Of a stretch of 64,000 nucleotides of DNA, positions 16,432 to 36,765 are shown in pieces. A program made the position numbers and the translations under genes. A model generated the notes under the pieces. That model worked only from the letters and a program-made list of their open reading frames with translations, was not told the origin of the DNA and did no database searches. Position 1 is the first letter of the stretch; each line of letters begins with the position of its first letter. The DNA is from Leptospiraceae bacterium (GTDB taxonomy: Bacteria > Spirochaetota > Leptospiria > Leptospirales > Leptospiraceae): the NCBI GenBank assembly GCA_015075105.1, contig JABTUZ010000002.1, positions 592,001 through 656,000 on the forward strand, read 5' to 3'.

Positions 16432-18051
16432 TTAAAAATTTAAACTTGAAGTTGCAGGAACTTTTACTTTATATTTCAAGTTTAATTCTTTTTTGACGTT
16501 AGGCGAAATCGTAACCGACCATTCATAAATACCGGAATTTTTAACTTTTTCTTTATACCCTGATGTAGAATTTTCTTGATCAATTTCTATTTCTGCCTCT
16601 TCTATATCAGAAACTGGAATTTGATCCATTACATTGATTTTTTTTTCTGATTTATCAAAATTCTCAATAGAAATGTATAAATTTTTTTCAAAGACCTTTT
16701 TATTCGATACGATTCCAGAGTTATAGTTTTTAGTATCGACTCTATAAGCAACCCTCACATTATTTTCGATTCCAAAGGATATAGTGAATTCTGATCCTAC
16801 AGGAATATAAGATATAGAAGACTCTCCTACATACCCGGATTCTCTATAAAGATTTACTTTTCCTGCAAGTAACGGAAAGCTAATTTTATTTTGTATCCTT
16901 CCTGTAAGAAAAACAGTCTTTTTTAATTTTGGAATTGTTAGAAGTTCAGGTTTTGAATTTGCCTGAAATTTAGATATAGCTACACGATGAAATTCTTTAT
17001 CAGAAGGAATTTCAATTTTTTCAGAAGAATGAAAAATAAAACTGCCGGCTGTCTTGTCAACAGAACCTTCAATATTTGTAGGCTCTGTCTCTGCTACAGG
17101 AGCTGCCATAGTTGTTGCGCCCCTTGCCGATTCTTTTTTATATAAAAAAAAGTTATCCTTTTTGGTTTGCGTTTCAATATTGTGCAATAATGTTCCAAAT
17201 ACTTTTGGACGAACTTGAGACTTTCTTGGTTCTGCTGTAGAAAGAGAGAGCTTTACATTTTTCCAGTTTTCACCACTTTCTTGTTGAATCTCTGCAATAT
17301 ACTCTACTTCTATTTGTCCGTTTTCAGAAAGAGTGATGTTATAGACCGGATTCCAAAGAGCACCACTCACAAGATAAGAAACTTGCAAGGGATAATTGAT
17401 AGTCTTGTTAGATGAGTTGATCACTTTCACTTCTGTAGTTCGAATTGACTTTCCGCTTCTGGAGATAATTTTATTCAATTTTTGATCTAAAATAGAAAGC
17501 TCAGATGTTACTTTGTCTAACTCTTTTTGTGTTTCATGGGAATAGTTTTCTAATTTTAAAAATTTATTTTTTAGTGATTCAAATGAATTTTTCCAGCCCA
17601 AAACTTCTTGTTCAGATTTTGTATAAGCTGCATTGTACGATACAGAACCAATTGTCAATTTTTCAAAATCTGAGTTTAGAGATTTCTCTTTTTGTATAGA
17701 AAAAAGTCTCCCTTCTAAAAATTTTCTTTCTTTTTCTTTTGAATCAATCTTTTCTTTAAGCTCTTGGATCGAAGAATCATTAAAATTAGTTGTTAGTTCA
17801 ACAAAAGAATTTACAGAAGAAATATTTAACTGATTTGATTCAGGGAAACTTGCTCTTAAAGTCGAATCCATTAAGTTTACAGGTAAAGAAGAAATTTTAA
17901 AAATTGTTTCTCCCGGAGGGATATTAATCTCTAAACGCCTTGTTATTTGTGCTCTGTCGCTGTAAATTAAAACTTCTTGAATCGGGATCGTTAAAGGCTC
18001 TGAAAAAAGTGAAGCAGTGGTTATTGTAAAAATTATAAAGATTTTTTTCAT
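16432..18051 (-). CDS. MuiA-family DUF4139 protein (downstream paralogue)
   Basis: A 539-residue exported protein of the mucoidy-inhibitor MuiA (DUF4140/DUF4139) family. A signal peptide (MKKIFIIFTITTASLFS) leads to a DUF4140 part (VLIYSDRAQITRRLEI near residue 28), then a long coiled coil (about 90-195), then DUF4139 with YLVSGALWNPVYNI near 225, GENWKNVKLSLSTA near 255 and the beta-rich C-terminal half ending in a KYKVKVPA motif. The family is widespread, but its function is not known. The start ATG overlaps the stop of the upstream paralogue as ATGA. Together they look like an ancient tandem duplication kept as a pair. Confidence 0.85.
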   Translation of the reverse strand: MKKIFIIFTITTASLFSEPLTIPIQEVLIYSDRAQITRRLEINIPPGETIFKISSLPVNLMDSTLRASFPESNQLNISSVNSFVELTTNFNDSSIQELKEKIDSKEKERKFLEGRLFSIQKEKSLNSDFEKLTIGSVSYNAAYTKSEQEVLGWKNSFESLKNKFLKLENYSHETQKELDKVTSELSILDQKLNKIISRSGKSIRTTEVKVINSSNKTINYPLQVSYLVSGALWNPVYNITLSENGQIEVEYIAEIQQESGENWKNVKLSLSTAEPRKSQVRPKVFGTLLHNIETQTKKDNFFLYKKESARGATTMAAPVAETEPTNIEGSVDKTAGSFIFHSSEKIEIPSDKEFHRVAISKFQANSKPELLTIPKLKKTVFLTGRIQNKISFPLLAGKVNLYRESGYVGESSISYIPVGSEFTISFGIENNVRVAYRVDTKNYNSGIVSNKKVFEKNLYISIENFDKSEKKINVMDQIPVSDIEEAEIEIDQENSTSGYKEKVKNSGIYEWSVTISPNVKKELNLKYKVKVPATSSLNF

Positions 18052-20111
18052 TCGATTTCTGCTCCTGATCCTTCTTTTAAAATATTTTTTGCAGGGTATT
18101 TAACAATGTATTCAAATTGTATTTTTTTTTCTTCACCTGGATTCAAAGAAATATTAAAATAAAAAGCACCATAATTTTTCTTTTCCGGATTGTGGGTTGC
18201 ATGAATAAGCTCAACTTCTATGTCTTTGTCAAATGTGTATGGAATTCGATCAATAACTCTCAACTGTATTTTTTCGTTCTTTTTATTTTTTAGTTGTATC
18301 TCAATCGAAGTTTTCACTGAATTTTTTTCTGAAAGAATTCCTTTCTTTTCTCTGTATTTAGTTTCTCTCCTGTCCACTTCAATATTATTGTCCGGACCTA
18401 AGTCGAATTTTAATTTTTCTCCTTTAGAGGTCATGTTGAGAATTGAAGTTCCTAAAAAATCTTCTTTGACAAATATATCTAAAGGACCAGCAAGAAGCGG
18501 TTCTTTATTTCTCGACAATGAAGAAGCAGACATAAAAACTGATTTTTGCGATATAGGAGAGGTTTCGTAATATAATTCAGAATTCAAATTTTCAATATTA
18601 ATCATAATTTTATTAAATGAATTATCTGATAGAATTGTTTCTTTTGACTTTGGAAAATATCTATAATCAAATCCACCCGAAGAAGATATAGGTGAAATGA
18701 GATTGACTCCGAGCTTGGAATTTGATTGTAAAATAGCCGATCTTCTTGAGATTTCTTCTATTTTTTCAGAAGTTTGTATTAACTCTTTTCGGTATCTTTC
18801 ATTTAAACGTAAAATTTTTTCTTTAGCTTGTTTTCCATAGTCTATCGCGTCAGAATAGTTTCTGGAAGCAAAAGAATCTTGCAAATTTTGAAAGTCATTT
18901 TTTAAGCTGTTCAAATTATTTTCTGTAGCAAAAGATCGAGATTGAACGGCATTGTTAGTAAGAAAATTTTTAGATTGAGCTTGAATGTCTGTTTGTTGAG
19001 GACTATATTCATTTGCTTCTTGAGGTTTAAATTTTTTCTTTTCAGACTTTTTACGAGGGCGTGGTTTATAATTTTCTACTTCTTCATCATCAGTGCTTAA
19101 AGTGTCACTTGATAGAGAATCATCTGAAATTTGACCGTCTAATTTTGAAGAAGGCATTTCTTTTTCTTCGGAAATTCTTCTTCGACTTTGTTTAGGCGAA
19201 ATTTGTGGTTTAAGATCGTCTTGGATTTCTTCATAGCCGATTCTCCATTCTTTCAAAATTGGTAGGTCCGAATTTTGATTCGGGTCTGCTGCCGAAAAAG
19301 AAAAATCAACATTTTGCCAATCTTCTCCTGTGTTGTTTCTAACTAAGGCGTAAAAAAATAGTGAATTTATTTTTGTAACTGTATCCACTTTTACTGCATA
19401 ATGCGGATACCATTCGGCACCTGAAACCATATAATCAACGTGAAATTGAATCTTCTCTCGAAGTGAAGATTGAAAATCAATAATGATTTTCTTTCTAACT
19501 TTTTCTTCTGCTCTTTTGTAAAAGTCTAATTTTGCTTCTGCTACGAGTAATTCTTCTCGCAAGTTGTCAATTTCTTCTAATTTGGCTATTTCTTGTTTTG
19601 CATTTTCTTCTAACATGACACTAATTGTTTTTTGTACAGTATTCCAAATAGAAGGATTCATCTGAATTTCCGGTACAGAAAAATTGGACTCTTTTTTCTT
19701 GGCAGTTATACTGTTGATTTTTTCTTTGTGTGAAATTAGAATAGAAAATTCTTTATTTAATAAGTTTAACTTTTTTAAAAGCTCATCGTATTTTATTTTA
19801 GCTTCTTTTGCTTGCTCATTCTGAAAAACCTTCTCGATTATTTCGACTACTTGAACACGTTTCACTTTGATAGGAAATTTCTTTGGCTCAAAGCTAATAT
19901 TGATTGACCTATCTATAATTGATTCGGGAATATTTTCTATGTAAAAACTAGTCAGATGTTTTTTGATATCCAACTCACCACTTCTACGAACATAAGCCTT
20001 ATTTTGATATAAACGAACTTGAGTTATTTTTGTATCAATACTTTCCGAAAAAATATCACCCGTAAATAGGCTAAACAAAAAAACAAAAAATAGTAAATAG
20101 GAATAGTTCAT
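18048..20111 (-). CDS. MuiA-family DUF4139 protein (upstream paralogue, with insert)
   Basis: A 687-residue exported protein of the same DUF4140/DUF4139 family as its neighbour. The N terminus (MNYSYLLFFVFLFSLFTGDIFS) is a signal peptide; VRLYQNKAYVRRSGEL matches the DUF4140 start. A coiled coil covers about residues 90-215. YMVSGAEWYPHYAVKVDT and GEDWQNVDFSFSAADP start the DUF4139 region near 230-270. Between about residues 290 and 460 it carries an insert absent from the paralogue: an Asp/Ser-rich acidic tract, a Lys/Arg cluster (YKPRPRKKSEKKKFKPQE), then a Gln/Asn-rich and helical segment. The ATGA overlap implies coupled translation and probably a joint envelope role. Confidence 0.85.
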   Translation of the reverse strand: MNYSYLLFFVFLFSLFTGDIFSESIDTKITQVRLYQNKAYVRRSGELDIKKHLTSFYIENIPESIIDRSINISFEPKKFPIKVKRVQVVEIIEKVFQNEQAKEAKIKYDELLKKLNLLNKEFSILISHKEKINSITAKKKESNFSVPEIQMNPSIWNTVQKTISVMLEENAKQEIAKLEEIDNLREELLVAEAKLDFYKRAEEKVRKKIIIDFQSSLREKIQFHVDYMVSGAEWYPHYAVKVDTVTKINSLFFYALVRNNTGEDWQNVDFSFSAADPNQNSDLPILKEWRIGYEEIQDDLKPQISPKQSRRRISEEKEMPSSKLDGQISDDSLSSDTLSTDDEEVENYKPRPRKKSEKKKFKPQEANEYSPQQTDIQAQSKNFLTNNAVQSRSFATENNLNSLKNDFQNLQDSFASRNYSDAIDYGKQAKEKILRLNERYRKELIQTSEKIEEISRRSAILQSNSKLGVNLISPISSSGGFDYRYFPKSKETILSDNSFNKIMINIENLNSELYYETSPISQKSVFMSASSLSRNKEPLLAGPLDIFVKEDFLGTSILNMTSKGEKLKFDLGPDNNIEVDRRETKYREKKGILSEKNSVKTSIEIQLKNKKNEKIQLRVIDRIPYTFDKDIEVELIHATHNPEKKNYGAFYFNISLNPGEEKKIQFEYIVKYPAKNILKEGSGAEIE

Positions 20112-21867: not shown

Positions 21868-23570
21868 ATGAATACTAAGGCTATTGAAAAAGAATATCCG
21901 GTAGAAGAAACTTCTGTATTGATTTCTCGAACCAATTTGAAAGGAGTGATTACTTATGTCAGTCCTGATTTTGCTCAAATCAGTGGTTATCCACCAAGTG
22001 AGCTAGTCGGAAAGCCACACAATATAATCAGGCATCCCGATATGCCAAAATCTATTTTTCGTTCTCTCTGGAGTACAATTAAACAAAATAAACCCTGGAG
22101 TGGGGTGATTAAAAATAAAAGGCAAGACGGAGATTACTATTGGGTTGATGCAACTGTTACTCCAATACGAAAAAACGATACACTTATCGGCTATATGTCT
22201 GTCAGAAAAAAACCTCTTCCCGGAGATATAGAAAAAGCAAAAGAATTGTATTCTTTATTACTTAGAGCTGAGAAAACTATCGCTTTTAAATTACAAACTT
22301 TTTTTGCTAGCATAAGGGCTTCACTTAGTCAGAAAAAATTTTTTATATCGATTGTTTTATTTTCAGTCGGATTAATCTATTCTATTGGCAATTTATTTTT
22401 TTCGGAATGGAATTTAAGAAATATTATAGCTTTGGGAACCCAGTTAATCTTTTTAGTTCTTGGAATATTTACTTCAATGTATTTTTATTTCAGTAAGCAA
22501 AAAGAAGAAAATATACTTCTTGAAGCGGCGGACTATATTAGCAGTGGTGGATTGAAAAAAAGTCTAAAGACTTTCAAGCAAGGAGGGATATTTAATAAAG
22601 AAATACTCCTACACTTAAAAAGTATTTCTACTGGTCTTTGGGGAGTTATATTTAAAATAAAGCTTAACTCAACAGAATCAGAAACTCTGTCTGTCAAGTT
22701 ATCAAAGTCAACAAAAGAAATTTCAGAACTAATTCAAAAGCAAGCTGCAGCAACCGAAGAAATTACTGCGTCATCCGAGGAATTATCTGCGACTATTCAT
22801 TCAATTTCTTCCAGTGTAGAAACCCAAACCGAAAATATTTCCTCTATCAAAGAAAAAATTGGGGTATTAGACGAGTCGATGAACAATGTGAAAGTAGAAA
22901 TGGGGAAGTTAGACGAAATCTCAGATAAAACGTCTAAGACTGCCCAAGAAGGAGATCAAAAGATTCAGAATCTTGTAGTCAGAATTCAAGAAATTAGCAG
23001 CAATTCTGCAAAGATAAATGAAATAGTTTCCCTCATTACAGCGATAGCAGATAAAACTAATTTACTTTCTTTGAATGCTTCGATAGAGTCTGCAAGAGCT
23101 GGAGAAGCAGGGAGAGGGTTTGCGGTTGTAGCAGGCGAAGTTTCTAAATTGGCTGATCAAACTGCGGTTAGCGTAAAAGAAATAACTGGACTTATAACTT
23201 CGAACAATAAAATTATTCACGCTACAAGTGAAGAAGTTACGGAAACAGTATCGTATTTACGATATATTTTAAATGGAATCCAAAAATCAACGACTCTGCA
23301 ATAGTAGTTTCCAAATCAGTTCAAGCAGAGGCAGAAAGGATTTCTAGAATAAAAGACAATATTTATGAAACTGAAAAAAGTGCGAATGAGATCAACTTTG
23401 GTATTAAAGAGCAAGGGCTTACTGCCAATGGAATTTCTGAAACAGTGATGTCTATTTCACACGAGATATCGGCGATCGGTCAGCAGTTGGACATACTCGC
23501 AGAGATTTCCAACAATTTAGTCAAGCCGGTCAGAATGATGGGTGAGCTAATTGATCACTTTGAAGTTTGA
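21868..23570 (+). pseudogene. PAS-domain methyl-accepting chemotaxis protein, frameshifted
   Basis: An Aer-like chemoreceptor. A PAS domain (residues 15-115; SPDFAQISGYPPSELVG, NIIRHPDMPKSIFRSLW, the usual redox- or small-molecule-sensing type) is followed by two membrane segments (about 155-215) and the signalling bundle with the canonical tip ADKTNLLSLNASIESARAGE and GRGFAVVAGEVSKLAD. The intact frame stops at 23304 (478 residues). Directly before it, in the A-run at 23283-23287, a one-base loss shifts the frame. In the other frame the bundle continues for some 90 residues (SKSVQAEAERISRIKDNIY through MMGELIDHFEV) to a TGA at 23568-23570. As read, the product lacks the C-terminal helix of the coiled coil and may not signal. 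A sequencing error or slippage at the A-run would restore it. Confidence 0.85.
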
Positions 23571-28311: not shown

Positions 28312-30153
28312 TTACTTTGCAGCCAAGTCTATTTTTTCTCGAACACGAATTACGTCGTAAGCGAAGTATTCACCCATTTTCCCTTTTAAATTCAAAGGCC
28401 CTTTTTTTTCTGCATCAATAAAATCTTTTACGACTTCATAAGTAGATTCACTAATCAAGACACCATTAGTTTTAGAATTACTCTCTAATCTTTGTCCGAC
28501 ATTTACAGTATCACCAATGACTGTGAAGTCTTTGCGATGAGTCTTACTTCCTATATCACCAATGTACAATTTTCCATAATTGATTCCAATTCGTATTTGA
28601 ATCGGAACTTTCTGGTTGAGGTTAAATTCCTTTAGTGCCTCGACCATTTCAAGCCCTGATTTAACAGCTTGATAGGAGCCGTCTTTATCACTGAATATTG
28701 CCATTATCGCATCACCAATAAACTTGTCTATGATAGCGTTGTTCCTTTTTAGCACGGTGCACATTAGATCAAAATAATCGTTCAATAAATTGATCAGATC
28801 TACCGGCTCTAGCATTTCACAAGTAGAAGTAAATTTTACTATATCCGAAAACAAGACAGTTGCATATATTTCTTTAGCCCGCATACTACTTGAACTTATA
28901 TTGTGCAGGGATTGTTGTTTTGCAGAAGCCAAGGCTACATCGGAAACATAAAATTTCAGAATTTCTCTTTCTCTATCAATTCTTTTCTCTGCCAAAACCT
29001 TTTCTATAACTACGAGTAATTTTTCGATTGGGAAAGGTTTTGTCAGGTAGGCTTTTACACCGGCTCCTGTACTTTTCCTTTTGTCAACAGTTGAGTCTCT
29101 TGACGTGAGCATGATAACAGGTATATCTTTTAGCGCATCTTCTCTTCGGAGAGCAGTACAAAATTCCCAGCCATTCATCACAGGCATATCGTAGTCGCTT
29201 GTTATTAAGTCCGGATTAATTTCTCTTGCTTTAGCAAGACCATCCATTCCATTCACTGCGGTAAATACACGAAAGCCTTGTTGTTTCAACCCTTGGTACA
29301 GCATTGACGAAACAATACTACTGTCATCGACTACTAAAATTTTCTCGCGCACAGAGCGGGCATTTTTTTGTAATAGATTTTGAATTCTGGAAACTAACTC
29401 ATCGTTGTTGATTGGCTTTGTTAGATAATCGTTTGCACCAGCTTCAAACCCTCGGTCAATGTCTAAGTTTGAATCTAAGGACGATAAAATCATTACAGGT
29501 ATGTGCTCTAAGTGGGTTGAATTTTTGATTGCCTTACAGAACTCGTACCCATCCATTTCAGGCATTTCGATATCGCTTATGATTATATCCGGTTTACACT
29601 TCTTTAAAAATTCCAAACCTTCCCAACCATTGTAGGCGTTCATTATTCGAAAATTATTTGCTGAAAGAACCTCGTCAATCATTTGGTGTATAATCTTACT
29701 GTCGTCTACGAGAAGTACGTATTTTTTTTCTGAAACAGCTTTATCAATTTTCATTATAAGCTCTTCTCTCCAAATTGGGAAATAAACAAAATGAAGTTTA
29801 GGATCAAAGTCAAAAATAGAATCGTCGTTGTCGTCTGTGTCTTTCTCTGAGCCTATCAGCGACAAAGATAGAATAGGTGTATCTGTAAAATTAATATCTA
29901 CGCGAAGTTTTTCATAGATTTTTTGAGAAGTAGGGTTTGTTTTTATATCTACAATCAAAAAGAAATCGACTGAATTTTCTTGAGTATAGCGATGAAATTT
30001 TTCATAATCGGAAAAATAGGTGATCTGATCTAAGGAGAGTGAATTTGCGATAACATCTAAATAACTGTTTCCTTCAAACGGAGAACAAAGTAGCTCGGTA
30101 AAATAATGGATATAGTTTTCATCTTCGGAAAAGAAAGCGATATTTTTATTCAA
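28312..30153 (-). CDS. receiver-receiver-adenylate/guanylate cyclase
   Basis: A 613-residue signalling protein. The first 125 residues look like a degenerate receiver. Two full receivers follow: VLLVDDSKIIHQMI...DIIISDIEMPEMDGYEF (about 135-250) and ILVVDDSSIVSSML...LITSDYDMPVMNGWEF (about 265-380), each with the phosphoacceptor Asp and the later Lys (YLTKP). A class III cyclase domain (about 425-600) has metal Asp residues in FSDIVKF and IGDAIMAIF, the substrate Lys in IDKFIGD, and DFTVIGDTVNVGQRLE carrying the Asp, Asn and Arg of the active site. It should make cAMP or cGMP; the Lys/Asp pair favours ATP. I chose the TTG at 30153 because AGAGG lies 7 bases upstream; ATG 30192 would overlap cheA by 47 bases. 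It is the last gene of the che operon. Confidence 0.88.
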   Translation of the reverse strand: MNKNIAFFSEDENYIHYFTELLCSPFEGNSYLDVIANSLSLDQITYFSDYEKFHRYTQENSVDFFLIVDIKTNPTSQKIYEKLRVDINFTDTPILSLSLIGSEKDTDDNDDSIFDFDPKLHFVYFPIWREELIMKIDKAVSEKKYVLLVDDSKIIHQMIDEVLSANNFRIMNAYNGWEGLEFLKKCKPDIIISDIEMPEMDGYEFCKAIKNSTHLEHIPVMILSSLDSNLDIDRGFEAGANDYLTKPINNDELVSRIQNLLQKNARSVREKILVVDDSSIVSSMLYQGLKQQGFRVFTAVNGMDGLAKAREINPDLITSDYDMPVMNGWEFCTALRREDALKDIPVIMLTSRDSTVDKRKSTGAGVKAYLTKPFPIEKLLVVIEKVLAEKRIDREREILKFYVSDVALASAKQQSLHNISSSSMRAKEIYATVLFSDIVKFTSTCEMLEPVDLINLLNDYFDLMCTVLKRNNAIIDKFIGDAIMAIFSDKDGSYQAVKSGLEMVEALKEFNLNQKVPIQIRIGINYGKLYIGDIGSKTHRKDFTVIGDTVNVGQRLESNSKTNGVLISESTYEVVKDFIDAEKKGPLNLKGKMGEYFAYDVIRVREKIDLAAK

Positions 30154-32377
30154 TGTTTTTCCTCTGATAAAAATATTGTTGGATGAGTTCATTTGGCTCT
30201 ATGATAAATCCTACACTTCCGTCTCCCATAATCGTTCCACTTTTTAATCCAGGAACTTCTTTGAATCTATTCCGAAAACTTTTTGACACTACTTTTTGTT
30301 TGTGTAAAATTTCATCTACTATGATTCCATAATAACTATTTTCATATTCAATGACCAAGATGATAGCTTGCTCGGGGTTTTTTATATAGTCTGAAATTTC
30401 GTAGTATTCTCCGAGACTGACGATTGGAGTAGTTCGATTTTCAAAGAATATATATGACCCTTCACTTCCGATTGTAAACTGAAAAGAATTTAATTTTGGG
30501 ATGAGTGTATATAAAATTTTATTTACTGGAAAAATAAATTTGCTTCTTCCCACACAGGTCACAAGCCCTTCTATAATGGAAGAAGAAAGAGGCAATTTAA
30601 TACTCATAGTTGTCCCTATATTCATCGTTGAAGAGAGGCTGATATTTCCACCGAGTTGTTCAATTGTTGTACGCACAACATCCATTCCAACACCTCGTCC
30701 AGAAATTTCAGTGATCTCATCCGAGGTAGAAAATCCCGGCATAAAGATAAGGTTGTAAATCTGGCTATCAGTAAGCTCTTGATTATTTGTAATAATTTTT
30801 TTTTCAATCGCTTTTGAAAGAATTTTTTCTTGGTTTAGCCCTGCCCCATTGTCTCGAACTTCAATACTTACGTTATCAGCAATATTTTCTACTTTCAAAC
30901 TAATAGTCCCGAATTCTGATTTTCCTTTTTTTAGTCGATCTGCCGAGCTTTCAATACCGTGGTCAATACAGTTTCTGATAATGTGCGATAAAGGAGAGTG
31001 GATTTGGTCAATCAATGTCTTATCAATTTCAACTTCACTTCCAATTGTTTCAAATTGAATTTTTTTATTTAGCTTCTGACTCAAATCTCTTACAGTTCTG
31101 GAGAGTTTGTTAAAAATACTCCCGATTGGAAACATTTTCATTTTTAAAATATTTTTTTGTAACTGCTCTATAGTAAGCTCCATTTGGTCGAGTTTTTCGG
31201 CAGTACTTTTATCTTGGTTATTATTAGAAATGGCTACTTGCTTTACAAGAGACAAAGCGATGGTCAATTCTCCAACCATCTCTTCTGCATCTTCAATTTT
31301 TTTTTGAGGAACACGAATTGTATCTGTCAAAAGTATTTCTGTTGTTTTGTTTAACTGGTTTGCATTGTCCGTATCCGTTTGATCTGTTTTAATATGAGAA
31401 ACAGCTCCACCCGATAAAACAGTTTGTAGTTGTTGAAGGGGTTCTACAATATCAACATTTTCAAAAATAGCATCGGGAATTTCTTTTGTAAGAACTTTTA
31501 GTTTGAGACTGATATTTTTAATCATTTTTTTTATAGTCTCTAAAACGGATAAGAACAAAGAAATTTTTTCACTATCGATTAGGATGAGCTTACTTCTGCA
31601 TTTTCCCAAGAGAGTTTCAAATGCGTGGCTCAATGTTTGTATATCAGAGAGTTTCAGAAAACCGGAGTCACCTTTGAGAGTGTGTATTCCTCGAAAAATT
31701 TCGTTGATAACCGATTCATTTTGAGGACTATTTTCAAGAATGAGCATATTGTCTTCAACAGCACTTAATATTTCGCTGGAGCTGGTAAGAAAATCATTAA
31801 GTAGATCTTTTTCTTCGATTTTAATATTTTCATAAGAGTTTTGAACGTTCTCTATATTTTGCAGAGCGATTGCAACTTCTGTAACCTTGTCCAAGCCTTC
31901 CTTATTTTTAAATTCATGAAATGTTCCAATGCTATGTTTTACACCATCTTTCCATACCGTGTTTAAAAGAGATTGAAATTTTTGAGTCATCTGATGAATT
32001 GTTTGCAGTTCTGAAATAACCATAGACTCATTTTCCTTTAGATACTCACTTGGCATATCATCCAATTGAGAAAAAAATTCTTCGATTTTGCTTATTATTT
32101 CAAAAACAAATTTGAAAGAATCAGGAGGTGCTTCCTTCAAGTGTACAGATTGAATGAATTCTGCACAAATGGAATAAGCGTTTCTAAATACGGCAAGATC
32201 ATCAATCGTAAATTTACGATTCAAATGAGAGAGAAGAGTAAAAAGGTGGATGCAATTCAATGCCTCAAGATTTTCTGTATCAAAAAGAGCAAGGCTTGCA
32301 TTCAAATCACTTCGGATTGAAACTGTTTGTTGCAATGTGTCTAAAAATTTATGCTTTGTAGTTTCAGAGAGTTCCAT
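30146..32377 (-). CDS. cheA: chemotaxis histidine kinase CheA
   Basis: A 743-residue CheA. The P1 phosphotransfer domain holds GIHTLKGDSGFL with the phosphorylated His near residue 232. P3 dimerisation begins near 355 (EDAEEMVGELTIALSLVKQ). The P4 ATPase has HIIRNCIDHGIESSADRLKK, VEVRDNG-like and GRGVGMDVVRTTIEQLGG, and a P5 CheW-like domain ends the protein (LPLSSSIIEGLVTCVGRSKF onward). About 200 residues precede P1, where most CheA proteins start directly with P1; this N-terminal part is helical and unassigned. The start is uncertain (ATG 32377 or TTG 32386), and neither has a clear ribosome binding site. It lies between cheB and the cyclase gene and phosphorylates CheB and probably the cyclase receivers. 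Confidence 0.93.
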   Translation of the reverse strand: MELSETTKHKFLDTLQQTVSIRSDLNASLALFDTENLEALNCIHLFTLLSHLNRKFTIDDLAVFRNAYSICAEFIQSVHLKEAPPDSFKFVFEIISKIEEFFSQLDDMPSEYLKENESMVISELQTIHQMTQKFQSLLNTVWKDGVKHSIGTFHEFKNKEGLDKVTEVAIALQNIENVQNSYENIKIEEKDLLNDFLTSSSEILSAVEDNMLILENSPQNESVINEIFRGIHTLKGDSGFLKLSDIQTLSHAFETLLGKCRSKLILIDSEKISLFLSVLETIKKMIKNISLKLKVLTKEIPDAIFENVDIVEPLQQLQTVLSGGAVSHIKTDQTDTDNANQLNKTTEILLTDTIRVPQKKIEDAEEMVGELTIALSLVKQVAISNNNQDKSTAEKLDQMELTIEQLQKNILKMKMFPIGSIFNKLSRTVRDLSQKLNKKIQFETIGSEVEIDKTLIDQIHSPLSHIIRNCIDHGIESSADRLKKGKSEFGTISLKVENIADNVSIEVRDNGAGLNQEKILSKAIEKKIITNNQELTDSQIYNLIFMPGFSTSDEITEISGRGVGMDVVRTTIEQLGGNISLSSTMNIGTTMSIKLPLSSSIIEGLVTCVGRSKFIFPVNKILYTLIPKLNSFQFTIGSEGSYIFFENRTTPIVSLGEYYEISDYIKNPEQAIILVIEYENSYYGIIVDEILHKQKVVSKSFRNRFKEVPGLKSGTIMGDGSVGFIIEPNELIQQYFYQRKNIE

Positions 32378-32390
32378 TGATTGCAAGTGT

Positions 32391-33428
32391 TTACATTTTA
32401 CCCAAAATTTTTAATAGCCGAATGGGAATCTCTTCTATGTCTTCAATGTAATCGACTGCATTTTTTTTAATGGCACTTGCAGGCATCCCAAAAACAGCGC
32501 AAGACTTCTCACTTTGAGCAATTGTTAGAGATCCACTATCCTTCATCTTTAACAGACCTTCAGCTCCATCTGATCCCATACCGGTAAGGATTACGCCTAT
32601 CGCATCTTTTCCGGCAGTTTGTGCCACAGAGAGAAACATTACATCTACACTTGGTCTAAAACGATTTACTTTTGGACTCATTTTTGTTGTGACCTTGTAT
32701 TTTAATCCATCCTTTTGTAAAATAAGATGATAGTTCCCGGGCGCAATCAAAGCAAGACCGTGTTGAAGTACGTCACCCGATTCTGCTTCGCGGACTTCAA
32801 GATACTTGCATAAGTCGTTTAATCGCTTTGCATAGGTAGTGGTGAAACCCTCTGGCATGTGTTGTGTAATTATGATTGGAGGAGTGCCTTCAGGAAGGTG
32901 CTCTAAAATATATCGAATTACCTCTGTCCCGCCTGTAGAAGATCCGATTGCAATAATTTTTTCTGCGGGACGAATGTTTGATAGTGATGTAATCTGTTTG
33001 ACTGTTTCTGGGTTTGCTTTAATAATCTGAATTTTTGCACCGTTGATTCCTCGAATTTTATTTACTAATATAGTTGAAATAGACGGGATTGCATTTGCGA
33101 GATCGTGCACTGGTTTTGGAACTACTTCTAATGCTCCTAGCTCCAATGCTTTTAAACTTGTTTCACATTCTCCATCTACGAGTGAGCTGAATACTAAAAT
33201 CGGTACCGGGTGGAACTCCATCAAAACTGTGATAAATTCAAGCCCGTTCATTCGAGGCATTTCCAAATCTAAGGTAATCACATCTGGTTTTAGTTCAACT
33301 ATTTTGTCGCGAGCATCGTAAGGATCGACTGCAGTTCCTACGACTTCTATGTCTGAAAATTTTTTTAGATTCTGATGTAATAAACTTCTTACGATCGCAG
33401 AGTCATCTACAATCAAGACTTTGATCAT
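32391..33428 (-). CDS. cheB: chemotaxis response regulator protein-glutamate methylesterase
   Basis: A 345-residue CheB. It has an N-terminal receiver ([14 protein letters not shown], phosphoacceptor Asp54 in [13 protein letters not shown]) and a C-terminal methylesterase with the catalytic triad Ser164 (IGSSTGGTE), His190 (ITQHMPEG) and Asp287 ([11 protein letters not shown]). It removes methyl groups from chemoreceptors and may deamidate Gln residues. The ATG overlaps the chemoreceptor stop as ATGA. No cheR methyltransferase gene lies in the window, so the opposing activity must come from elsewhere. Confidence 0.96.
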
Positions 33429-35470
33429 GATTTATCTTCATCCTCAAAATTTTGAAAATCATCCTTCATCGGAATTTGTCTTTTTGGATTGGAAAGATTC
33501 TTTTTTTCTTTGGAGTTCATTCTTGAGGACAAATGAGGTAAAAGATTTTTTTGAGTTGAGTTTTTTTGAGCAGTCATAAAATTTAGCTCATTTATAATAA
33601 GTAGGAGCGATTCGGCTTGACTATTCAATTCTTCGGCAGCCGATGAAGTTGCTTCAGATACGCTTGCATTTTGCTGAGTTACATTGTCTATTTGATGTAT
33701 TGCTTTTGCTACTTGCTCTATTCCCAACGATTGCTCAATTGTAGATCGTGATATATCTTCAATTTGATTTTTGACAGAGCTAACGTATTCTGCGGCTTGA
33801 TTAGAATTTGTATTTATTTCAGTAATGATATTTGCAATCTTGAAAGAGTTTTGTAAAACATCTTTTAAGGTTTCTGTCCCCATTTTTGCAATAAGGTTTC
33901 CTGACTCTACTTTTCTTACACTTTCTTTAATTAGCTCTGCGATTTTTTTTGCCGCAGCTCTACTTGTTTCTGCAAGCTTACTTACTTGATCGGCAACGAC
34001 CGCAAATCCAGCGCCATGCTCGCCGGCACGAGCAGCTTCTATTGCTGCATTGACTGCAAGCATTTTTGTTTGTTGGGTAATCTCGTTTATAGAGTCAATG
34101 ATCTCGGTAATTTTTTCACTTCCTTGACGAATTTCATCCATTGCCTTTGTGATTTCTGTGATAACTTCGTTTCCTGATTCTGCGGATAACCTCGCTTCCT
34201 CTGACATCCCAACAGCTTCTTTTGCACTGTTCGCACTCTGGTGAACTATGACTTCAACTTTATTCACAGATGCAGTTACATCTTTACTTGAATCTGCATT
34301 TAAGTGAGCTTGAGATGCAATTTCTTCCATAGTGCTGGAAATTTCTTCGATTGAAGCTGCTTGCTCTAATGTTCCTGATGAAAGTTGTGCACTTGCTGTA
34401 GCGATTTGATTAGAAGCTGCACTTACCTCTTTACTGCCTACACTTAAATTTGTGACGATTCTTGAAAAATTCCGAAACCCGATAAACCCAAAAATTATCG
34501 TAAACCCGACTACAATACACATAGTCAATATATAAAAGATAATTTCTTTCTCAATCCACTCGCTTTGTTTTTTTGTTTGAGCAAGAATCTTGGAAGATAG
34601 AGTGTTGCTAAAACTCCACATAAGATCTATTTTTCCAGTAATTTTTTCGAACCAAACGTTTGTGTTTACTGTAAACTTTCCATCTATTGCGTGCTCGATT
34701 GCTAAGTTTTGCATTTTTTCAACATCATCAATATCCGAGCCTTTGATGGTACTTTCTGCAAGTTGTATCCATTCGGATGGGGCGTTTCTTTTAAAGATGG
34801 CAAGAAAATTATTTTGTCCTGAAATAGCTGCTAAAAATTTTAGTAAATTTGCTTGAATAAATTTTCCGTCGGCGAATGCGTTAGTCAACACTGCTCTTTC
34901 AACCCCATTGAACTCTATAATAGAAAGAAAGGCCGCAAGAGCATTTAGCTGTAGAGAAAGGTCGGCGTTTGTAGTAAGCTTTGGCATAGCTGCAATTGTT
35001 TCTAAGAAATTCCAATTCATTTTGGTATAATATTCTGTTCCTTCAGGGCCAGAGATTGTAAAATTAGTTTGTGCTTTTCTCATTTCTTTGAGACGGTTTG
35101 TTTCAAGAATTGCTTTATCAATGGCAAATTTAAACTCTAAATTGTATTCATTGAAATCAAAATTCTTTAGTGCAATTTTTAGCTCTTCTAATTTTTCATT
35201 GGTTACAGAATGTTGCCTAGGTAATTCAATTGCAAACTTTTCTCCTTTAGAACCAAGAAAACCTCCGACCATCCCTCGTTCTTTTTGAGATTCTTGAATA
35301 AATGCACTTACTTTTATAGCAAGAACTGCATATCGTTCAAACTTATTTAATTCTTTTTTTGTTTCTAATTTCATAATCAAAAAAATAATTGAAAAAAATA
35401 AAAAGGCTATAACTGGAATGAATACCAGTAGAGCAAACTTTGTTGACATTTTCATTCGCAGTAGTTTCAT
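33425..35470 (-). CDS. methyl-accepting chemotaxis protein with NIT sensor domain
   Basis: A 681-residue transmembrane chemoreceptor. One membrane segment near residue 10-30, then a periplasmic nitrate/nitrite-sensing (NIT) domain of about 240 residues recognised by [20 protein letters not shown] near residue 52 and [13 protein letters not shown] near 200. A second membrane segment follows (about 310-335), then the signalling bundle with [25 protein letters not shown] domain is not obvious between the second membrane segment and the bundle. NIT domains bind nitrate or nitrite in characterised proteins; the ligand here is inference. The C terminus has no CheR-tethering pentapeptide. It is coupled to cheB by ATGA and follows cheW. 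Confidence 0.9.
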
Positions 35471-35490
35471 CGTATCCTCTTTTGTTGTAA

Positions 35491-35964
35491 TTATAATAAA
35501 TTATCTATTTCATCATTACTTAAAATTTTTTCAATTTCCAAAATTATGATAACTCTCTCGTCTAACTTTATCATTCCGGAGATGTAGTCCGAACGAATAT
35601 TTTTTCCGAGTTGTGGTGATGGTTCGTATTTTTCTGCATCAATTGAGATGACTCCAACAAGTTGGTCAACAATGATCCCTGTTAGCATGCCATTCAAATC
35701 AACTACAATAATACAGTTGTCTTTATCTGTTTCTTTGTGCTCTAAATTGAATTTGCGCCGCATGTCTACAATTGGGACAATTTTTCCACGCAAATTAATT
35801 ACACCTCTCATAAACGATGGAGTCCTTGGTACAGGGTCTATGTTTTGTATTTCAACAACTTCCCTTGCTTCTAAAATACGAATTCCGTATTCTCTTCCAT
35901 CTAAAAGAAAGGACAAGAGCTTTCCGGTTGACTTGTTTAATGGATTTTCCTGAGCAGGTGACAT
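35491..35964 (-). CDS. cheW: chemotaxis coupling protein CheW
   Basis: A 157-residue single CheW domain that bridges chemoreceptors and CheA. The family pattern is clear: [24 protein letters not shown] near residue 13, [20 protein letters not shown] near 45, and [17 protein letters not shown] near 90. The ATG at 35964 is preceded by AAGGAAAG. It is the first gene of the operon cheW-mcp-cheB-cheA-cyclase, 20 bases ahead of the chemoreceptor gene. The upstream gap to 36041 is short and probably contains the operon promoter. Confidence 0.95.
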
Positions 35965-36040: not shown

Positions 36041-36529
36041 TTACTCCCAACCTGGAGTAGTTGGAGCTACGGACTTGTCTTCAAAGGGAACTAACTTTTT
36101 CTTTAAATCCTGTCCGCTAAACTGAAGTTTTAAATAGCAATTTCCACCCGGGTCGTTTTCTTTTTCTACAGTTCGTATTTGGATTTTTAATTCATGGAAT
36201 TGCTTTGAAAATTTTTGTTCCGGATAGAGCAGGCTATCCCCGGTGTTGATATTTTTCAAAAATCTATAGTTGAATACCTTAATACCATAATTTCTTGCAT
36301 TTTCGCAAGCGAGTAGTTTAGCAGTTGCTAAGTCCATTTGCTTTTCTGGCGGAAAGCCATTGGCTCTTAATTGAAAAGTGTGCTCATCTACCCATCCATA
36401 ACTATCGGATTCCTTTTCTTTAACAGGTGGAGGATTGACTGGAGGCTTTGCGCAAAAAACTAATGCGAAAAACATGAAAAGATATTGGCAAGCAGAAATT
36501 TTTATGAAAGTATTTTGGTTTAGTTTCAT
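36041..36529 (-). CDS. small lipoprotein encoded with csrA and fliW
   Basis: A 162-residue predicted lipoprotein. The N-terminal hydrophobic stretch ends ALVFC with the likely lipid Cys at residue 26, followed by a Pro/Lys-rich linker ([14 protein letters not shown]). The rest has [16 protein letters not shown], a pattern also seen in lipoproteins of the LPP20 type, and ends with a beta-rich segment. I do not recognise a family with confidence. The start ATG overlaps the csrA stop as ATGA. Expression with flagellar hook genes suggests a motility or cell-envelope role, but that rests on context only. Confidence 0.7.
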
Positions 36530-36765
36530 TTTTTCTTTTTTAGTATAGCACCTAACTTACCTAAATCTTCGGGTTTGATATTGATTGCAGATGCTTTTTT
36601 GTTTTCGTCTTGGATCTCCTGATAGATTTCTGCTCGGTGTACAGAAATATTCTTAGGAGCTTTGATTCCTATTTTTACTTGATCACCTTTGATGTCAACT
36701 ACAACAACTTCAACATCGTCTCCAATCATTATGGATTGATTTAACCTTCTTGCAAGTACGAGCAA
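36526..36765 (-). CDS. csrA: carbon storage regulator CsrA
   Basis: A 79-residue RNA-binding post-transcriptional regulator. [18 protein letters not shown] and [20 protein letters not shown] are the family's RNA-contact strands, with the binding Arg in HRAEIYQEI. It carries a C-terminal extension of about 20 residues after the usual end. CsrA represses translation of target mRNAs, typically flagellin, by binding GGA sites near the start. It lies 1 base after fliW, the CsrA antagonist, and is coupled to the following lipoprotein gene. That gene order (fliW-csrA) is common in bacteria that use FliW as partner-switch regulator. Confidence 0.97.

Follow-up and report, generated by a model that had tools for sequence, protein, structure and literature searches.

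The window examined here is a stretch of 64,000 nucleotides from a Leptospiraceae bacterium, and it contains five closely packed genes on the minus strand in the order cheW, NIT-domain receptor, cheB, cheA, and receiver-cyclase. Listed in the direction of transcription, these are:

35491..35964, minus strand: cheW, a coupling protein of 157 aa and the first gene of the operon (Pfam CheW, E=1.5e-40)
33425..35470, minus strand: NIT + MCPsignal chemoreceptor, 681 aa (Pfam NIT, E=6.8e-43; MCPsignal, E=4.3e-39)
32391..33428, minus strand: cheB, 345 aa, receiver plus methylesterase (Pfam)
30146..32386, minus strand: cheA, 746 aa (Pfam Hpt, dimerisation, HATPase, and CheW)
28312..30192, minus strand: receiver-cyclase, 626 aa (Pfam two Response_reg, summed E=3.1e-54; Guanylate_cyc, E=1.1e-30)

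Along the operon, 20 bp separate cheW from the receptor gene, which overlaps cheB by 4 bp; cheA follows cheB after 4 bp and itself overlaps the cyclase gene by 47 bp. The start codon of cheA is either the TTG at 32386 or the ATG at 32377. Coordinates and Pfam domains, the latter with E-values far past chance, agree with the five-gene operon of the original prediction. No cheY or cheR had been seen in the window, and this holds: profiles built for this analysis found neither a CheR nor a further receiver gene elsewhere in the window, and the only receivers in the cluster are those of CheB and the cyclase.

Just upstream of the operon there is a small lipoprotein-like gene, and between it and fliW lies a csrA gene that starts with TTG (about 36526-36765, minus strand) and is missing from the ORF list owing to its shortness. 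Sites resembling sigma-70 promoters and terminators occur at chance level, and repeats inside the operon appear to be short AT-rich chance matches. Two adjoining genes, both of the DUF4139/DUF4140 family, occupy 16432-20111 (minus strand), and a second receptor gene, missed initially, is found at 21868-23304 (plus strand). The N-terminal part of this receptor is PAS-like, and its MCP signalling domain ends 71 residues past the hairpin tip, compared with about 160 in most receptors of the genome, so that the second arm looks cut short.

The assembly (3.42 Mb in 4 contigs, from a genus represented by one genome) encodes four CheA, three CheR, and eleven receptors. The other three CheA clusters (L036, L037, and L038) each possess their own single-receiver protein. 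L036 has no cheR of its own and encodes an F1-type CheA-CheX fusion (L036 6226-9327), as reported for the F1 CheAs of the class Leptospirae (PMC10782961). One cheR lies outside any che cluster: L039 6338-7234 and 8064-9377 (C1, about 517-520 kb) hold this gene and, about 1 kb from it, a class III cyclase gene whose product has no recognised N-terminal domain.

The operon lies 3' of a series of flagellar genes that share its strand (flgN-flgK-flgL-fliW-csrA), and the genome also encodes unlinked single-receiver proteins. Both observations would suit a system that mainly tunes flagellar behaviour, with CheA acting on a CheY encoded elsewhere and the cyclase as a secondary or cross-regulated output. 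We regard this as unlikely, as each of the other CheA clusters already owns a single receiver, L036 having the F1-type CheA-CheX; sigma-28-like sites are not in excess in the window (94 found, 89 expected); and the cyclase occurs again with CheA in two genomes of another genus (G003 and G005, see below), where an unsystematic look noted no fliW/flgK-type context.

The operon CheA begins with an N-terminal extension of about 190 aa, which is followed by an Hpt domain with the predicted phospho-acceptor His235 (HTLKG). The N, G1, F, and G2 boxes of the ATPase are all present by motif position, and no match to P2 was found in the protein. Judged by these motifs, the kinase is catalytically complete. 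Pfam detects no CheX or CheC fusion in it, unlike in the F1 flagellar chemotaxis system of Leptospirae.

The operon receptor is a transmembrane protein with a NIT sensor at residues 57-295 and then the MCP signalling domain; Pfam finds no HAMP match in it. Its signalling arm is 30 residues longer than that of the L037 receptor of the same genome, and a methylation-type motif of the classical form, [10 protein letters not shown], can be recognized by inspection. The C-terminus (window 33425-33470) reads [12 protein letters not shown]. The receptors of the L037 and L038 clusters end in DDFEKF and EFEGY, which resemble CheR/CheB-tethering pentapeptides, and the operon receptor possesses a similar pentapeptide-like motif followed by six further residues.

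The NIT domain is described, in a passage of PMC8199190 citing Shu 2003, as a predicted nitrate-responsive module. A periplasmic nitrate or nitrite signal had been proposed for the operon; the NIT family assignment stands (E=6.8e-43), whereas nitrate itself is a lead at the level of the family. NasR is the sole related PDB sequence found for the receptor, in a weak match (E=0.0019) within which QKER of the receptor (R65) aligns to QCER of NasR, and the second nitrate-binding Arg cannot be placed. Nitrate as the ligand is a guess from family membership.

The receiver-cyclase can be sub-divided into a degenerate receiver (about 14-150), receiver 1 (159-271, D207), receiver 2 (about 283-398, D333), linker helices (389-429), and a class IIIb cyclase domain (444-608). 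Two intact receivers had been predicted, and indeed each possesses all five key residues, D163/D164/D207/S237/K259 in receiver 1 and D289/D290/D333/T363/K385 in receiver 2. Residues 1-150, which had been overlooked, constitute a third, degenerate receiver that is detected by profile comparison only (hhalign 97.6% vs receiver 1 and 98.2% vs receiver 2) and lacks the phosphorylation pocket.

All six catalytic residues are present in the cyclase domain (the metal-binding D450 and D494, K490, T557, N564, and R568), and they are conserved in 30/30 aligned rows. The original prediction of a complete class III cyclase was right as to the catalytic set but not as to the adenine-specifying residue, which is Thr557 rather than Asp; by this residue pattern, the domain is class IIIb. 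Nearest in sequence and fold are CyaB (3r5g, 34%) and CyaC (1wc0, 30%), and the fold is almost as close to that of the guanylyl cyclase Cya2. An AlphaFold model built from 6 sequences, in which the domain arrangement is uncertain (pTM 0.37) and residues 1-154 are unreliable, shows long helices (389-429) linking receiver 2 to the cyclase, and its best solved fold match is PleD (REC-REC-GGDEF).

A search of related genomes for conserved linkage between the cyclase and CheA had been suggested, and the linkage does recur, both in one other genus of the same class (here g4) and in Myxococcota. The full-length cyclase is found in 5/48 genomes of the class, namely that of the window and four of g4. 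Of the 28 Leptospirae genera sampled, only two have the family, which is also present in some Myxococcota (23/379 genomes). In G003 and G005 of g4, the genes run in the order receptor, CheW, CheA-REC, cyclase, the last two directly abutting; in the other two g4 genomes, the contig ends at the cyclase and the upstream region is unreadable. CheA is directly upstream of the cyclase in 3/3 readable Leptospirae loci (window, G003, and G005). The g4 core consists of a dCache receptor, tandem CheW, and CheA-REC, with no cheB near; since the sensor is dCache rather than NIT, the input is not conserved along with the output.

Over residues 135-604, the window cyclase is closest to those of Myxococcota (40-44% identity, vs 30-33% for g4). 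The 22 main-group loci of Myxococcota all have CheB, which in 18 of them comes immediately after the cyclase on its strand, and nine have CheA, immediately upstream of the cyclase in eight. Complete loci are ordered cheW, mcp, cheR, cheA-REC, cyclase, cheB.

One might argue that the dual-receiver cyclase follows cheA by chance and has some unrelated histidine kinase as its partner, considering that the genome holds 22 class III cyclases and that dual-receiver cyclases without che neighbours exist, in L052 and in the distant relatives L177-L180 (two of these four being near a contig edge). The 47-bp coding overlap with cheA, together with the recurrence of the cyclase with CheA or CheB across two phyla, makes such a coincidence quite improbable.

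Co-occurrence was assessed by running a profile of the partner CheA on 12 Myxococcota genomes whose cyclase locus is without CheA. A partner-type CheA-REC was found elsewhere in 11 of the 12, with scores of 790-926 bits (next-best CheA, at most 472), and in 2/6 examined its neighbours are cheR, mcp, and cheW, which indicates a cluster split in two. Among 379 Myxococcota, the cyclase is present in 16/17 genomes having the partner CheA (Fisher p about 6.5e-22), and the partner CheA in 15/16 genomes with the most similar cyclases (Fisher p about 8e-24), though these p-values ignore shared ancestry and so overstate the evidence, the split clusters being the stronger point. It should be kept in mind that this test is not directly applicable to the window CheA, which is distinct from the partner CheA of the myxobacteria. 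With the cyclase family lying beside, or co-occurring with, chemotaxis kinases in organisms as distant as the myxobacteria, the pairing is likely to be genuine rather than a chance effect of gene order. Linkage in g4 and Myxococcota and co-occurrence when unlinked both support the earlier suggestion that CheA would be the natural kinase for the cyclase.

All readable relatives retain an intact phosphorylation site in receiver 1 (residue table). Receiver 2 keeps its full set of key residues in the window and in 23/26 myxobacterial rows, where selection probably maintains it as a receiver, and its Asp has been lost in g4 and in L178-L180. It had been proposed that two receivers in series would allow graded or opposing control. 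The observed distribution suits a protein in which receiver 1 acts as the switch, with receiver 2 serving as an adaptor that is optionally phosphorylated. In a stricter version, receiver 1 alone would be phosphorylated, and receiver 2 and the degenerate receiver would act as dimer adaptors with no integration of two inputs. PleD, the best fold match, is activated in a comparable way according to PMC8999164 (citing Paul 2007), in that phosphorylation drives its dimerisation and the second receiver serves as adaptor. We take this stricter version as a serious possibility that falls somewhat short of even, the retention of an intact receiver 2 in the window and in most myxobacterial rows speaking against it; it is a sub-case of the cAMP-output explanation that follows and is compatible with it.

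The MCP, CheW, and CheA core is encoded together with a multidomain (non-CheY) response regulator; of the adaptation genes, which do not define this class of pathway, cheB is in the cluster and three CheR genes are elsewhere in the genome. Counting also the recurrence of the cyclase with CheA, the intact phosphorylation and catalytic sites, the fold match to PleD, and the receivers that the other CheA clusters have for themselves, we think it probable that the operon encodes an "alternative cellular function" chemosensory pathway with cAMP as its output.

In this cAMP pathway, the receptor and CheW would control CheA, and the receptor-CheW-CheA complex would autophosphorylate His235. Phosphate would then pass to Asp207 of receiver 1 (perhaps also to Asp333 of receiver 2) and to CheB, and the receivers and linker helix would bring two cyclase domains together as an active dimer, in a manner like that of PleD and DgcR. 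The cAMP may act via proteins with cyclic-nucleotide-binding domains, of which the genome contains 14 matches, and CheB with CheR supplied in trans would provide adaptation. Class III cyclases require two domains to build the active site; it is from this requirement, the precedents of PleD and DgcR, and the long helices of the model that we infer the mechanism. In DgcR of Leptospira biflexa, the phosphorylated receiver shifts a coiled-coil linker, thereby aligning the two catalytic domains (PMC8041772). The receivers of the window protein could also be phosphorylated by kinases other than CheA.

In the CheB tree, the window CheB groups with the CheBs of the L037 and L038 clusters of its own genome, and the myxobacterial cyclase-linked CheBs form a separate clade (97/95) across a starred branch (99/97) from it. 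The window CheA does not join the myxobacterial cyclase-linked CheAs in the CheA tree; constraining all cyclase-linked CheAs together is rejected (AU p=0.031) and constraining the window and g4 alone gives p=0.053, which is a modest result given the long branches. Vertical inheritance of the whole operon, shared with the myxobacterial system, was considered and is disfavoured for CheB and weakly so for CheA, where long branches should be borne in mind. The position of cheB is before cheA in the window and after the cyclase in myxobacteria.

The cyclase-linked CheAs (window, L041, L046, and L172) all have about 150-220 residues preceding Hpt, and the L037 and L038 CheA of the same genome have Hpt at the N-terminus. 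As a shared trait, the extensions of the window, g4, and myxobacterial CheAs were rejected, since profile comparison found no homology between them; those of the myxobacteria and g4 have just a weak Hpt-like match (32-34%).

Because the window CheB belongs with the CheBs of its own genome and not with the myxobacterial cyclase-linked ones, one effector appears to pair with different chemosensory cores. Two histories would account for this, repeated joining of the cyclase to different cores or exchange of the core around a resident cyclase; the cyclase tree gives no clear answer as to the direction of transfer or as to an origin of the window gene in Myxococcota. We suggest tentatively, at just under an even chance, that this triple-receiver putative cAMP synthase is a portable output module that has been coupled on separate occasions to at least two, perhaps three, cores in two phyla. 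These would be the window-type CheA with native CheB; the dCache receptor, tandem CheW, and CheA-REC of g4; and the myxobacterial CheR, CheA-REC, and CheB. If so, receptor arrays would control cAMP with built-in adaptation in two phyla, and one effector with different cores would offer natural replicates for how a chemosensory pathway changes its output.

A che cluster with a cyclase output is not new, since the 2012 survey of CheR-TPR clusters (PMC3447774), in the sections considered here, already lists a mononucleotidyl cyclase among the receiver-fused outputs of alternative-cellular-function clusters, in which multidomain response regulators are frequent. The CheA, CheW, and MCP core and a receiver fused to an enzymatic output are common to those clusters and to ours, which differs from them in being without cheR, in the class IIIb cyclase, and in having a degenerate plus two intact receivers; an effector family common to several cores and phyla is not described in those sections, which do include a chemosensory link to c-di-GMP. 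Within the open-access literature, we found no description of this three-receiver cyclase, of its co-occurrence with a specific CheA, or of its pairing with different cores.

The Wsp pathway, in which a CheA-type kinase acts on WspR (REC-GGDEF), is likewise a chemosensory array controlling a nucleotide second messenger via a receiver-cyclase. WspR makes c-di-GMP and has one receiver, whereas the window effector is a class III mononucleotide cyclase. PleD shares with it two receivers in series ahead of a cyclase domain, a likeness of architecture only, and DgcR (REC-GGDEF, PMC8041772) shares receiver control of a dimeric cyclase. The window protein differs from both in being class III rather than GGDEF, in its extra degenerate receiver, and in its pairing with CheA instead of a conventional histidine kinase.

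CyaC of Spirulina platensis (1wc0) is a two-component-linked class IIIb cyclase with kinase and receivers fused in one protein; the window cyclase, also class IIIb, is separate from the kinase CheA. CyaB of P. aeruginosa (3r5g) has a similar cyclase domain but is a membrane protein and not a cluster receiver-cyclase, and it is tied to the Chp chemosensory system only indirectly, perhaps through FimL (PMC3019171). In the literature found, chemosensory arrays are connected to cAMP by this indirect tie, whereas a direct link would become testable with a few purified proteins where the cyclase doubles as the receiver protein in a CheA operon.
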